Source: an uncultured Anaerolineae bacterium
GTDB taxonomy: Bacteria; Chloroflexota; Anaerolineae; Anaerolineales; Villigracilaceae
Assembly: GCA_903875215.1 (NCBI GenBank)
Contig: CAIQVH010000008.1
Coordinates: 1-64,000, forward strand
Reading direction: 5' to 3'
Length of the DNA: 64,000 nt
Of the stretch, positions 27,297 through 51,934 are shown one piece after another. The notes under the pieces are model-generated. The model worked only from the letters and a program-made list of their open reading frames with translations. It was not told the origin of the DNA and did no database searches. Position 1 is the first letter of the stretch. Every line of letters starts with the position of its first letter. A program made the translations under genes and the position numbers.

Positions 27297-29138
27297 TTAC
27301 TCTACGGTCACGCTTTTCGCCAGGTTGCGCGGCTGGTCAACATCCAGCCCGCGCAGGGTGGCGATGTGGTAAGCCAGCAATTGCAGCGGAATGACCGTGA
27401 CCACCGGGCTGAGCAGCCAGGGTGCCTCGGGTACCCACAGCACATGCTCCGACATACCCTCGACCAGCTCGTCGCCATCGGTGGCCAGGGTGATGACGCG
27501 CCCATTGCGCGCGCGCGCCTGTTGAATCTGGCTGATCATTTTCTCGTGCCAGGGGTCTTGGATGGCAATGCAAATCACCGGCATGTGCTCGTCGATCAGC
27601 GCGATCGGGCCGTGCTTCATCTCGCCGGCAGGATAGCCCTCCGCGTGGACGTAGGAAATCTCCTTCAGCTTGAGCGCGCCTTCGTAGGCGATCGGCATGT
27701 TGATGCCGCGCCCCAGGTACAGGCAGTCGCGGATGTCTTTCAACGCCCGGGCCACCTTCACCACCTGCGGCTCACGCGCCAGCGTGCGCCCCACCAGGTG
27801 CGGAATCAGCCGCAGGTCGGCCACCAGCGCGCGGCGGGCTTGCTCATCGAGCGTGCCGCGCAGGTCTGCCAGTAAAATGGCCAGCATGTACAGGTCTACC
27901 AGCGGCGCGGTAAAGGCCTTGGTGGAGGCTACCCCGATCTCCGGGCCGGTTTGCATCGAGATGGCGCCATCGGCGATGCGCATGGCTTGTGAGCCGATGG
28001 CGTTGACGATGCTCCAGACCAGCGCGCCTTTTTTGCGGCCTTCTTCCATGGCGGCCAGCGTATCGGCGGTTTCACCCGATTGCGAGATGGCCAGCACGAC
28101 CGTGTTTTCATCCACGATCGGGTCGCTGTAGCGGAATTCGGAGCCGATGACCACTTCGACGGGCAGGCGGGCAATCTTTTCAATCAGATATTTTCCGACC
28201 ATCCCGGCGTAGGCGGCGGTGCCGCAGGCGGTGATGTAGATTTTTTGCAACCGGCAGGCGATTTCCGGGGTCAGGTTCAGTTCGGGCAGGCGGATTTTCC
28301 CGGCGGAAAAATCCACGCGCCCGGCCAGGGTATCTGTCAGCGCGCGCACCTGTTCGTGGATTTCTTTTTGCATGAAATGGCGGAATTCACCTTTTTCGGC
28401 AGCCACCGGGTCGAAGGCAATACTGTGAATTTCGGGTTTGACCGGGCTGCCTTCCAGAGTCTGGATCTGGATTCCGTCTCGGGTGACGATGGCCATCTGG
28501 CGCGATTCGAGGAAGATCACGCGGCGGGTGTGTTCCAGGATGGCGGGGATGTCGGAGGCGAGGAAATTTTCTCCGTTTCCCAGGCCGATGACCACGCCCC
28601 CGGCATTTCCCAGCCGGGCGCAGATGATTTTATCCGGTTCGTCGGCGCTGATCAGCAGGATGACACTGGCGCCTTGCACCTGTTCAAAGGTGGCGTGCGC
28701 CGCGCTGGTGAAATCCAGCCCGCTGGCCTGGTGGCGCTCGACGAGGTGGACGATGGTCTCGGTGTCGGTATCGGAGTTGAAGGGGATGCCCTCAGCGGCG
28801 AGTTCGTCTTTTAGTTCGAGGTAGTTTTCGACAATGCCGTTATGAACGACGACCACGCGCCCGGTGGTGCCAAGGTGCGGGTGGGCATTGCGCGCGCTGG
28901 GCGCGCCGTGGGTGGCCCAACGGGTATGACCAATGCCCGGCGCTCCGCTGATGGGCTGCTGGCTGACAAGATCGGCCAGGTTGGAGAGTTTTCCGGCGTC
29001 GCGGCGCAGTTCGATGCCGCCATTTTGTACGACCGCTACGCCGGCCGAGTCGTAGCCGCGATATTCCAGGCGCTTCAGGCCATTGAGAATGATCGGCGTC
29101 GCATCGCGCGGGCCGACATAACCAACAATTCCACACAT
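27297..29138 (-). CDS. glmS: Glucosamine-6-phosphate synthase
   Basis: Glutamine:fructose-6-phosphate aminotransferase of 613 residues, the first step of UDP-GlcNAc and peptidoglycan synthesis. The N-terminal Ntn glutaminase begins MCGIVGYVG (Cys2 nucleophile) and contains RWATHGAPS and NGIVENY. Two SIS isomerase domains follow (about 290-430 and 460-600; SQSGETADT, KHGPIALI) and the conserved C-terminal PRNLAKSVTVE end. The 500-bp leader contains a probable glmS ribozyme, so feedback by glucosamine-6-phosphate on the mRNA is likely. Confidence 0.96.
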   Translation of the reverse strand: MCGIVGYVGPRDATPIILNGLKRLEYRGYDSAGVAVVQNGGIELRRDAGKLSNLADLVSQQPISGAPGIGHTRWATHGAPSARNAHPHLGTTGRVVVVHNGIVENYLELKDELAAEGIPFNSDTDTETIVHLVERHQASGLDFTSAAHATFEQVQGASVILLISADEPDKIICARLGNAGGVVIGLGNGENFLASDIPAILEHTRRVIFLESRQMAIVTRDGIQIQTLEGSPVKPEIHSIAFDPVAAEKGEFRHFMQKEIHEQVRALTDTLAGRVDFSAGKIRLPELNLTPEIACRLQKIYITACGTAAYAGMVGKYLIEKIARLPVEVVIGSEFRYSDPIVDENTVVLAISQSGETADTLAAMEEGRKKGALVWSIVNAIGSQAMRIADGAISMQTGPEIGVASTKAFTAPLVDLYMLAILLADLRGTLDEQARRALVADLRLIPHLVGRTLAREPQVVKVARALKDIRDCLYLGRGINMPIAYEGALKLKEISYVHAEGYPAGEMKHGPIALIDEHMPVICIAIQDPWHEKMISQIQQARARNGRVITLATDGDELVEGMSEHVLWVPEAPWLLSPVVTVIPLQLLAYHIATLRGLDVDQPRNLAKSVTVE

Positions 29139-29169: not shown

Positions 29170-29205
29170 GTTGCAGGTTGAAAGGTTCAACCTTTCACCT
29201 GCAAC
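29170..29205. repeat. Imperfect palindrome in the glmS leader
   Basis: GTTGCAGGT-t-GAAAGGTT pairs with AACCTTTC-ACCTGCAAC with a single bulged base and a 1-nt centre, giving 17 pairs. No T-run follows on either strand, so it is not a typical terminator. It lies between the ribozyme candidate and the glmS ATG. Confidence 0.55.
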
Positions 29206-29289
29206 ACGGTGTGGCGCTGCCAATCTTTTTGCCTGCCCGGTTGCCCGCGCAGGGTTGTCGTTTGGCTTTGTACTGGAGGGAAAGAAGGA

Positions 29290-29435
29290 CGGGCTGTGAC
29301 GGCCCGGAGGGCTTCCGCTGAACTTTCGATTTTCCCGTTGGGCGTTTCCGCTGACCGGTTGGCTCCATCCTGCGATGGAGAACCCTCATCCTCGTCATCC
29401 TGCATTGGTTGAGTTCAATTTCAGGATCATGCGCT
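29290..29435 (-). ncRNA. Probable divergent glmS ribozyme
   Basis: Reading the minus strand toward glmS, the core elements of the glmS ribozyme appear in order: AGCGC at 29435-29431 (expected cleavage after the A); P1 ATCCTG/CAGGAT (29427-29422 with 29402-29397) directly followed by GACGAGG (29396-29390); P2 GAGGG/CCCTC (29387-29383 with 29311-29307); ATCGAAA (29330-29324); CAGCGGAAG (29320-29312); then a P3-like hairpin CGGGC-N7-GCCCG (29306-29290). Differences: AGCGCA for AGCGCC, AGCGG for GGCGG, and about 50 extra bases (29380-29331) folding as two hairpins, one with a GAAA tetraloop. Location upstream of glmS strongly supports it. The consensus is from memory. Confidence 0.7.
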
Positions 29436-29598
29436 GTCTTTCCCCAAAAACCGATTTTTTTCTGGCCACCTCCTTGCCTGTTTCTTTGAGTGTTTTGAGT
29501 TCATCAGGGTTTGTGCTCAGCCCTTTGTGAGCGGTGATTCGTGTTGTGGTTGATGAGCGAACTCCTGACCCGGGGGATTATACCCCTCCGGAAAAACC

Positions 29599-29650: not shown

Positions 29651-31546
29651 TCAGCCAATATCTGCCGAGGTGGGGGTGGGGGTTAAGGTTGGGGTGCGCG
29701 TGGCGGTGGGCGTGGGAGTGGCGTTGGGCTTGGTGGCCGTCGGCGAGGTGCTGGGCGTGGGGGTGCTGGTGATGGTGGGGGTCTTGGTGATGGTGGCGGT
29801 GATGGTGGTGGTGCTGGTGACGGTCGGAGAGGCCGTCGGCGTGGCGCTCGGCGCAGCGGCGGCGATTTTGAAGTTATCGGTTTTCTGGCCGCAGCTGGGT
29901 TTGGTGCTCTGCCACAGGGTGACTTTGAAGACACCCGGGAAATAATTGGGGGGAATGTTGTACATGTTCAGGCCGAGCGGAACGATGACGCCGAAGGGCG
30001 GGCCGAGGAAATCACCGAAGTTCATGAAGAAGGTTCCGGAGTTGACGATGACTGAGGGGTTGCTGACGGTTTCGACCTTCCAGGAGTAATTGCCGGCCGG
30101 CAGGTTCTGGTTCTGGGCATCCTGGGCGCCTTTCAGGTAGGGCGAGTAGAAACAGCCGTAAGGGCAGTCGTATGACGAGATGTTTTGGGCTATGCCGTCC
30201 AGGTCTGAGGTGGTGATGGCGCCGCTCAGATTGCAGACTGGCGTCCAGGTGGGGGTGGGTGATTTGGTGGGGGTTCCGGTGATGGTGGGTGTGCGCGTGA
30301 TGGTGGGTGTGCGCGTGATGGTGGGTGTGCGCGTGATGGTGCGGGTGAGGGTGATGGTGGGGGTGAGGGTCTTGGTGGGCGTCAGGGTGATGGTGGGGGT
30401 GCGGGTGACGGTGGGGGTCAGGGTGGCGAGGATTGAGAAGGTGCGCGAGGCAATGACCGAGATGCGCCCATCCAGGCCGGTGGCCTGGGCATAGATGGTG
30501 TAGGTGCCGGGGATGAGTGAGTAAAAGGAGGCGCCAGTGCCGGTTTCGAAGGTGTTGCAGGGCGCGTTACCGCCAAAGGCGCAGTATTCGGCGGCATTTT
30601 CCAGGCGGCCGGAGATGGCGCCGGGCCCGGTAAACCAGAAGTTGACACTCTGGATGCCGTTGCCGTTTTCGAATCCGTACGGGGGGTTGTAGGCGACGGC
30701 TTCAAAGTGTGTGCCGGTGTCGTCATTGATGATCGAACCATCAATCGCCGGGTTGGAGATTTCGATGACGATGGGCATGGGGGTCAGGGTGACGGTTGGG
30801 GTGGTGGTGGGTGTGACGGTATCGGTGACAGTGGGGGTATGGCTGGGGGTCAGGCTGGGGAGCAGGACATCCGGGGGGAGCGAGATGACGCGCGAAATGC
30901 GGAAGGATTCGACCACGGCCTGGCGTTCGGCGGTGATGTGAAACATGGGGACGGTATAGTTGATGAAGGGCGTCAGGAAGGGGTGGTTGTAGTCAATCAT
31001 GACGAAGACGTAGTTATTCTGGCCGCCAGCGTCTTCGGTGGCGGTGCCGTCCAGGCTGCAGGAGGCGTAGGCGGCGTTGTCCTGGCGGCCCTGGACGGGG
31101 GAGATTTTGAGGTAGTCTCCGACCCCGTCGTTATTGAGGTCGCGCCCGGAACAGACGGTCATTTTCAGGTAGCCGCGGTCGCTCTGTCCGGCGATGGCAT
31201 CCAGCATCATGAGCAGGTGCCATTTGTCGCCTTCTTCGTGGATGGAAATTAGCCGGGCGGCGTCAATTTCCTGGTCTTTCATCGGGCCTTCGCCGCATGG
31301 GCTGCCGTTGCCATCCAGGTCTGGGCAGTTGGCCGGGTTGTACTGGTAGGTGGCGGCGTAACGCACCGTCTGGCGGGCCATGTTTTGAATGGTCAGCCAG
31401 GAGGCCATCATCAAGGAGAAGTCGATGATGCCGAAGATGATCATCAGGAAGATGGGGAAAGTCAGGGCAAACTCGAGGGTTGCCTGTGAGCGGTGACGTT
31501 TGCCGGTCAGCCGGGAAAAGTGCGCAGGGGGGGTAAGTGGAGGCAT
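29651..31546 (-). CDS. TadE-like pilin-assembly protein with Thr-Pro repeats
   Basis: A 631-residue protein with a TadE-like N-terminus: a basic stretch, QATLEFALTFPIF, and one hydrophobic helix (about 25-50) with the Glu typical of type IV-like pilins. The rest is extracellular: an Ig/bacterial-type segment, then blocks of TPTxTxTPT repeats (about 370-430 and 580-631) around a second globular part (about 435-570). Such repeats form stiff, possibly glycosylated stalks through the wall or sheath. Last gene of the Tad-like cluster. Role in pili or surface display is inference. Confidence 0.75.
   Translation of the reverse strand: MPPLTPPAHFSRLTGKRHRSQATLEFALTFPIFLMIIFGIIDFSLMMASWLTIQNMARQTVRYAATYQYNPANCPDLDGNGSPCGEGPMKDQEIDAARLISIHEEGDKWHLLMMLDAIAGQSDRGYLKMTVCSGRDLNNDGVGDYLKISPVQGRQDNAAYASCSLDGTATEDAGGQNNYVFVMIDYNHPFLTPFINYTVPMFHITAERQAVVESFRISRVISLPPDVLLPSLTPSHTPTVTDTVTPTTTPTVTLTPMPIVIEISNPAIDGSIINDDTGTHFEAVAYNPPYGFENGNGIQSVNFWFTGPGAISGRLENAAEYCAFGGNAPCNTFETGTGASFYSLIPGTYTIYAQATGLDGRISVIASRTFSILATLTPTVTRTPTITLTPTKTLTPTITLTRTITRTPTITRTPTITRTPTITGTPTKSPTPTWTPVCNLSGAITTSDLDGIAQNISSYDCPYGCFYSPYLKGAQDAQNQNLPAGNYSWKVETVSNPSVIVNSGTFFMNFGDFLGPPFGVIVPLGLNMYNIPPNYFPGVFKVTLWQSTKPSCGQKTDNFKIAAAAPSATPTASPTVTSTTTITATITKTPTITSTPTPSTSPTATKPNATPTPTATRTPTLTPTPTSADIG
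30279..30350. repeat. 18-bp tandem repeat in the Thr-Pro coding region
   Basis: Three perfect copies of GTGATGGTGGGTGTGCGC (30279-30332) followed by degenerate copies; on the minus strand they encode (T-R-T-P-T-I). The copy number may vary by slippage without changing frame. Confidence 0.8.
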
Positions 31547-51840: not shown

Positions 51841-51934
51841 GGGAGTGCATAAGTCCCGGTGGGCTTCCCGGTCTTCAAAACCGGTGTTGGGTCGCGTTGC
51901 GGTCCAGGGTGGGTTCGACCCCCATGCACTCCCG
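51841..51934 (+). tRNA. selC: tRNA-Sec (UCA anticodon)
   Basis: A 94-nt tRNA with an 8-bp acceptor stem (GGGAGTGC/GCACTCCC), anticodon stem CCGGT/ACCGG with anticodon TCA, a long variable arm (about 51891-51908) and a short T arm with GGTTCGACC. The long acceptor stem, extra arm and UCA anticodon are specific to bacterial tRNA-Sec. Discriminator G. The organism should therefore insert selenocysteine, but no selA, selB or selD is in the window. Confidence 0.95.

Follow-up and report, generated by a model that had tools for sequence, protein, structure and literature searches.

A glmS ribozyme, very probably active and of a lineage-specific architecture, in Chloroflexota, and a sister subclass upstream of glutamine synthetase genes

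The leader of glmS in the window (the whole 64,000-nucleotide stretch of DNA analysed here) contains an element that is very probably an active glmS ribozyme of lineage-specific architecture. Among riboswitches, the glmS ribozyme is the textbook example in which a metabolite serves as catalytic cofactor. From the sequence evidence, we hold with high confidence that the element belongs to this family in a Chloroflexota architecture, and that it is a self-cleaving ribozyme in the glmS mRNA leader activated by glucosamine-6-phosphate (GlcN6P). It is probably an RNA switch that cuts its own message when a cell-wall sugar is abundant. Relatives have a sister subclass, which probably acts by the same chemistry on glutamine synthetase and, in a few genomes, on glutamate synthase.

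The element lies in the 5′ leader of glmS on the minus strand, with the predicted cleavage site about 300 nt upstream of the glmS start codon. Its parts are as follows; P0 is a name coined in this analysis.

27297-29138 (-): glmS, the controlled gene (TIGR01135, 763.7 bits, cut-off 418)
29209-29446 (-): putative glmS ribozyme as a whole (RF00234 match, model 1-167, 27.2 bits, E 1.6e-4)
29434-29435 (-): predicted cleavage site, A(-1) 29435 / G(1) 29434 (AGCG aligned to the Rfam consensus)
29435-29431 (-): AGCGC (read directly; A29435 is followed by GCGCAUG up to P1)
29437-29445 (-): P0 5′ strand GGGGAAAGA, pairing with 29285-29277; one C then separates it from A29435 (covariation)
29277-29285 (-): P0 3′ strand UCUUUCCCU, 3′ of P3 (covariation with the P0 5′ strand)
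29422-29427 (-): P1 5′ strand AUCCUG (alignment and pair counts)
29397-29402 (-): P1 3′ strand CAGGAU (alignment and pair counts)
29396-29390 (-): GACGAGG (read directly)
29390-29395 (-): ACGAGG, P2.1 first strand and catalytic G (sequence; numbering per PMC11602151)
29383-29387 (-): P2 5′ strand GAGGG (98.4% of cells paired, 3 of 5 pairs covary)
29331-29382 (-): insert of 52 nt with two hairpins, between the P2 5′ strand and ATCGAAA (read directly)
29363-29380 (-): inserted hairpin PA (-10.2 kcal/mol, z -4.3; covariation)
29335-29358 (-): inserted hairpin PB, with an inner GCG-GAAA-CGC hairpin in the window genome (-7.1 kcal/mol, z -0.9; covariation)
29330-29324 (-): ATCGAAA (read directly)
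29327-29330 (-): AUCG, P2.1 second strand and part of the cofactor pocket (sequence; role per PMC11602151 and PMC7125110)
29320-29312 (-): CAGCGGAAG (read directly)
29315-29319 (-): AGCGG, P2.2 second strand and Bsu G67 (sequence)
29307-29311 (-): P2 3′ strand CCCUC (CCCTC in the DNA; covariation counts)
29290-29306 (-): P3 hairpin (Rfam alignment, fold)
29219-29266 (-): P4 (GCCAA/UUGGC) and P4.1 (Rfam alignment)

Bsu G67 in the AGCGG strand is presumably Tte G65. The catalytic G of ACGAGG is Bsu G42, or Tte G40, in the numbering of PMC11602151.

When 512 nt were searched against 4227 Rfam families, the glmS ribozyme model RF00234 matched the leader over its full length (1-167) at 29446-29209 with 27.2 bits and E 1.6e-4 (2.8e-4 when the whole genome was searched with RF00234); the second-best of the eight Rfam matches in the leader reached 17.3 bits. 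The score places the window copy under the curated cut-off, a gathering score of 37, and the ribozyme is not listed by a whole-window Rfam search at gathering thresholds. The original prediction had proposed a glmS ribozyme upstream of glmS, to be sought with the Rfam model at a relaxed threshold and in the glmS leaders of relatives; this full-length match and the retention of the element in those leaders bear it out. The series that it had named, AGCGC, P1, GACGAGG, P2, ATCGAAA, CAGCGGAAG and P3, could be read directly and in this order on the glmS strand, and the two-hairpin insertion of about 50 bases that it had placed between P2 and ATCGAAA was found, 52 nt long, at 29382-29331. The differences from the core consensus that it had mentioned are likewise there, chiefly in the fifth P2.2 pair, which is A5/A63 instead of C5/G63. 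The window copy has A-1 G1 C2 G3, ACGAGG, AUCG and GCGG, and both pairings of the double pseudoknot, CGA/UCG in P2.1 and CGC/GCG in P2.2, were found. Confinement of the element to 29290-29435 was rejected, as P0, P4 and P4.1 fall outside (the 5′ helix starts from 29445, and P4/P4.1 end near 29209).

From 37 glmS-type sequences, one of them the window copy, a covariance model named R1 was made. In the alignment of these sequences, from which the structure was itself read, so that the counts favour that structure, 90.5% of cells are paired compared with 68.7% when shuffled, both partners have changed in 25 of 30 pairs, and covariation scores 0.605 compared with 0.09-0.16 when slid. All seven pairs of PA (94.6% paired) and all five of PB (89.0%) covary there, that is, 12/12 pairs of the two hairpins changed on both sides; P3 is the weakest helix, at 75.7% paired. 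On 56 matches (53 distinct, mostly of the sister subclass), 26/30 pairs covary, and PA again does so in 7/7 pairs with 98.9% paired; this second alignment was fitted to R1, leans towards it, and includes AGCGU copies and the glmS-side copy of locus L098. Judged by this covariation, the inserted hairpins are real helices. PB is short in the window genome, and alone it is no better than shuffles (z -0.9). Covariation across relatives is shown for P1, P2, PA, PB, P3 and P0.

P0 pairs the part of the leader immediately upstream of the cleavage site with the strand after P3. On the comparative evidence it is the most unexpected part of the architecture, since the strand that cleavage would release is held in this helix. 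A helix between the 14 nt above A-1 and the stretch after P3 was present at shuffle p <= 0.05 in 83 of the 138 sequences that the test kept (of 149), and its strands change in concert: GGGAAAGA/UCUUUCCC, GGAGAAA/UUUCUCC, GGAGGGU/ACCCUCC, UGUUUAGG/CCUAAACA and GAAAGUA/UACUUUC. When partners were exchanged between sequences, a control that leaves relatedness in, the helix score of the 117 glmS-type sequences fell from 16.31 to 13.48 ± 0.22 (0/100 exchanges above 14.09), and that of the 47 glnA-type sequences from 14.27 to 13.04 ± 0.19 (none of 100 exchanges reached the observed value). Helices of at least six pairs were formed by 68% of glmS-type and 62% of glnA-type sequences, compared with 48% and 51% after exchange. 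By eye, a P0-like helix was not seen in the f36 and uninserted sequences examined. The P3.1 pseudoknot is supported across relatives, with a score of 13.02 compared with 11.32 ± 0.18 (116 sequences); it is not clearly formed in the window, where the strand best suited to complete it, UGGC, doubles as the 3′ strand of P4.

The core nucleotides are strongly conserved: AGCG (A-1 G1 C2 G3) is found in 114/117 glmS-type and 47/47 glnA-type sequences, and ACGAGG in 116/117 and 47/47, while the conservation of AUCG and GCGG is partly fixed by the search pattern used to collect sequences. Among 126 Chloroflexota sequences with C4, positions 5/63 of P2.2 are A/A in 106, C/G in 14 and other in 6; the search pattern fixes A63, so the contrast between A/A and C/G rests on the sequences found by the models. 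According to PMC7125110, nucleotide 6 is bulged in the consensus core, single mutations at pair 5/63 cause a mean loss of about 1000-fold, and bulge shifts rescue partly; a bulge shifted toward the middle of P2.2 rescues mutants, with C4A being rescued about 24-fold by A6C. The same source hypothesises that positions 4, 5, 6 and 53 covary, and the Chloroflexota sequences, as aligned here, behave as this hypothesis has it.

Several points count against the ribozyme reading: the replacement of C5-G63 by A5/A63, the Rfam score below the cut-off, the weak P3.1 of the window copy, its short PB, and the genomes of the class and other relatives that give no R1 match. The first three speak for a degenerate, inactive remnant with a drifted core. 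We consider such a remnant very improbable: relatives have the same core and insert with compensatory changes, the window copy scores 118.9 bits with R1 (of which it is itself one of the 37 training rows), and the cleavage-site nucleotides and ACGAGG are preserved in nearly all copies. The last point bears equally on the idea that a glmS-derived RNA ceased to cleave and became a plain riboswitch or a protein-binding leader with the insert as its new regulatory part. The strong conservation of the inserted hairpins as helices would suit such an RNA, but A-1, G1 and the catalytic G of ACGAGG, which are needed for cleavage, are preserved in nearly all copies, and we regard this idea as highly improbable. 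That the resemblance arose by chance in a GC-rich leader is hardly credible; although the plain minimum-free-energy fold of the region is no better than shuffles (z -0.9), the full-length covariance match (E 1.6e-4) falls in a glmS leader, the pair counts contradict chance, and the element is conserved above relatives' glmS.

If the element is the cleaving glmS ribozyme that we favour, its mechanism would follow that of the family. GlcN6P, the product of GlmS, would bind a preformed pocket, its amine would act as the general acid, and the RNA would be cut between A29435 and G29434. In Bacillus subtilis, the 5′-OH cleavage product is degraded by RNase J; by analogy, the downstream RNA with its 5′-OH would then be degraded, probably also by RNase J, and GlmS would fall. 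The window's genome has an RNase J-like gene (TIGR00649, which we take to be the RNase J family; 572.8 bits, cut-off 400), and this model matches widely in control genomes. PA and PB would lengthen the loop leading from P2 to the pocket strand AUCG, and P0 would keep the leader beside the cleavage site. We infer the roles of these three helices, as well as cleavage and ligand, the latter two by analogy with the glmS ribozyme family; the helices most likely contribute fold stability and a hold on the cleavage-site strand, and one might guess that P0 also retains the 5′ product, slowing its release or permitting re-ligation.

A search of 61 genomes (relatives and the window's own) with RF00234, run with stricter filters, gave matches at E <= 0.001 in 35 and above the cut-off of 37 in 11; a genome of the same genus, G002, has a match over the cut-off and the same insert in its sequence. 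The core is complete in 40 of the 41 sequences that were read, the window's included; G032 is without it, and its Rfam hit (G032_C112) was dropped. In all 40 core-complete sequences, one or more additional hairpins are seen by eye to separate P2 from AUCG; G045 and G028 have only one. As the insert was read in relatives' sequences, the possibility that it is peculiar to the window genome was rejected. The word atypical, which the original prediction had used of the architecture, applies relative to the Rfam consensus; it does not apply inside the order to which the window belongs, since the sequences read from that order have the insert as a rule.

R1 matches were found in 128/400 phylum genomes and in 231/396 class genomes (147/223 genera), not all with the insert; 165/396 class genomes gave no R1 match. 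Within the genus of the window, 8/11 genomes, the window's included, have a strong match, and in the assemblies of the three exceptions (G001 at 24 bits, G007 and G010) no full-length glmS was found. Two relatives, G024 and G020, have hits for glmS over its cut-off, yet no R1 match. In the 128 matched genomes of the phylum set (44 class genomes and 84 others), the match is at least 120 nt long in 77 and at most 104 nt in 51. The long matches belong to the window's class, to families f35, f36, f46, f72 and f75, and to G139 and G352; short ones occur in f33, f41, f50, f59, f67, f74, f77, f89 and f91, and those short ones among the 61 matches read are without the insert. In the class set, the matches listed (E down to 3.6e-19) are all at least 120 nt. 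That every class match has the insert was nevertheless rejected, because in 13 of 28 class genomes with weaker matches the best match is only 81-108 nt (f24, f105, f135 and f140, by match length; one of the 13, G580, matches part of the R1 model only). By these sequence comparisons, the insert is met again across the order of the window and outside it; shorter forms occur in other Chloroflexota families, including some of the window's class. Where present, the insert measures 20-139 nt with a median of 47, four being 20-23 nt (111 of the 117 glmS-type rows, the uninserted ones left out). In other Chloroflexota families, glmS-type ribozymes (L265 in G139, L266 in G352) have an insertion elsewhere, in the loop after AUCG.

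The core check dropped 11 of 160 candidates (L049, L051, L067, L072, L083, L104, L115, L121, L131, L158 and L161), among which L104, L121 and L161 may be real, judging by title or by the glmS downstream of L161, but are cut or off-pattern. The core-checked candidates and the loci of the 61 matches read, identical ones removed, make up a set of 182 sequences, which still includes some wrongly assigned starts (e.g., L095, L146, L155) and a chance hit (L231). In a tree of 171 of these rows, with those four left out by name and the other omitted rows by length, the rows nearest the window's ribozyme are Chloroflexota MAGs; the 80 titles among the pattern-search matches listed are mostly Anaerolineae or Chloroflexi. 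In a Spirochaetaceae MAG (L095), the encoded GlmS shares 68% identity with that of the window and a ribozyme core of Chloroflexota type lies upstream of its gene, which suggests either a mis-binned contig or horizontal transfer.

The sister subclass comprises the 47 of the 182 sequences that start AGCG[G/A]CU, not AGCGC. Glutamine synthetase (glnA) lies downstream on the same strand in 40/47 (e.g., L060, L015, L203, L098 and L214), with its start projected 149-419 nt after the core in 25 of the 40 and 2197-2596 nt in the other 15. In the far cases examined, an HTH/methylguanine-methyltransferase ORF and an EamA transporter ORF lie between (Pfam for L068). Two further copies, L056 and L071, precede glutamate-synthase-like ORFs that have no Pfam match of their own and, where BLAST aligns them best, share 41-51% identity with the PF01645 glutamate synthase proteins of L201 and L078; the remaining five (L061, L080, L093, L111 and L222) are cut short or masked. 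None of the 47 immediately precedes glmS. The L098 and L214 loci have glnA followed by glmS, each gene with its own ribozyme. AGCGU copies were also found above glnA (G053, G040) and above a glutamate-synthase-like ORF (L145 and, judged by its resemblance to the other copies, L099). Two AGCGC copies, L078 and L201, lie above glutamate synthase (PF01645), not glmS, and a third, L159, has a partial glnA-like match (50% identity) 446 nt downstream. The genome of the window has no glnA-linked copy: after the glmS one, R1 hits reach only 14.4 and 11.2 bits, and the 500 nt upstream of its single glnA are without ACGAGG.

In a quick tree made without the class-defining 5′ nucleotides, the 47 sister rows need 2 changes compared with 41.5 when shuffled; the subclass may have a single origin. 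Its P2.2 is best fitted with position 4 bulged and pairs C5-G64, U6-A63 and G7-C62, which indicates that the bulge has probably moved to position 4. This register would be the natural form of the bulge shift engineered in PMC7125110; it matches the C4A/A6C rescue and makes cofactor choice directly testable. AUCG, GCGG, AGCG and ACGAGG are unaltered in 47/47 copies (partly by construction, AGCG having helped to define the class), which favours GlcN6P as ligand, or at least shows no change. That the subclass is instead a self-cleaving nitrogen-assimilation switch, whose cofactor would be another amine reporting nitrogen status, appears unlikely from its sequences; if the cofactor did change, the moved P2.2 bulge beside the cleavage site would belong to that change. 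Even with GlcN6P as cofactor, the sister copies would form part of a ribozyme regulon linking amino-sugar supply to glutamine supply. To our knowledge, the glmS ribozyme is known almost only above glmS, and with a paralogous subclass upstream of glutamine synthetase its chemistry would gain a second gene set. Of the 8 copies in the 61-genome search that are not above glmS, 2 exceed the RF00234 cut-off, so Rfam listings may already contain some that have passed without remark.

The window element shares with RF00234, as represented by B. subtilis, B. anthracis and T. tengcongensis, its place above glmS, the AGCG cleavage site, helices P1, P2, P2.1, P2.2, P3, P4 and P4.1, and the core elements ACGAGG, AUCG and GCGG; the 52-nt two-hairpin insert, P0 across the cleavage site, A5/A63 in P2.2 and the sub-cut-off score set it apart from that family consensus. 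McCown, Roth and Breaker (2011) reportedly described glmS ribozymes of Deinococcus-Thermus whose catalytic core has additional stems, and also two glmS ribozymes outside glmS mRNAs. Extra core stems as such would thus have a precedent, and the claim of novelty is limited to the architecture of this lineage and to the subclass linked to glnA. In what was seen of the open-access papers on the glmS ribozyme, neither the insert nor P0 nor a class linked to glnA is described; as far as searched, the insert with P0 and the glnA-linked subclass are new, on the sequence evidence. The glnA RNA RF01739 also sits above glnA, but it is a non-cleaving aptamer, unlike the sister subclass with its glmS ribozyme fold; both concern nitrogen assimilation. 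The ligand of RF01739 is glutamine according to PMC3766115. Its extra hairpins next to the core and its helix across the cleavage site make the widespread Chloroflexota architecture a source of natural variants for asking how the periphery supports the core.

Between the ribozyme and the glmS start, a long hairpin at 29170-29205 (-) folds with -24 kcal/mol (z -5.3, 56-nt stretch), and the sequence of one of its arms is found once in the genome at up to one mismatch; it could be a block to 5′-3′ exonuclease after cleavage, or a protein site. Elsewhere in the window, 29651-31546 (-) is a 631-aa ORF with long Thr-Pro-rich repeats, whose neighbours are ORFs resembling, by eye, TadE/TadG-like pilus-assembly proteins, and 51841-51933 (+) is a selenocysteine tRNA gene (RF01852, 76.4 bits).
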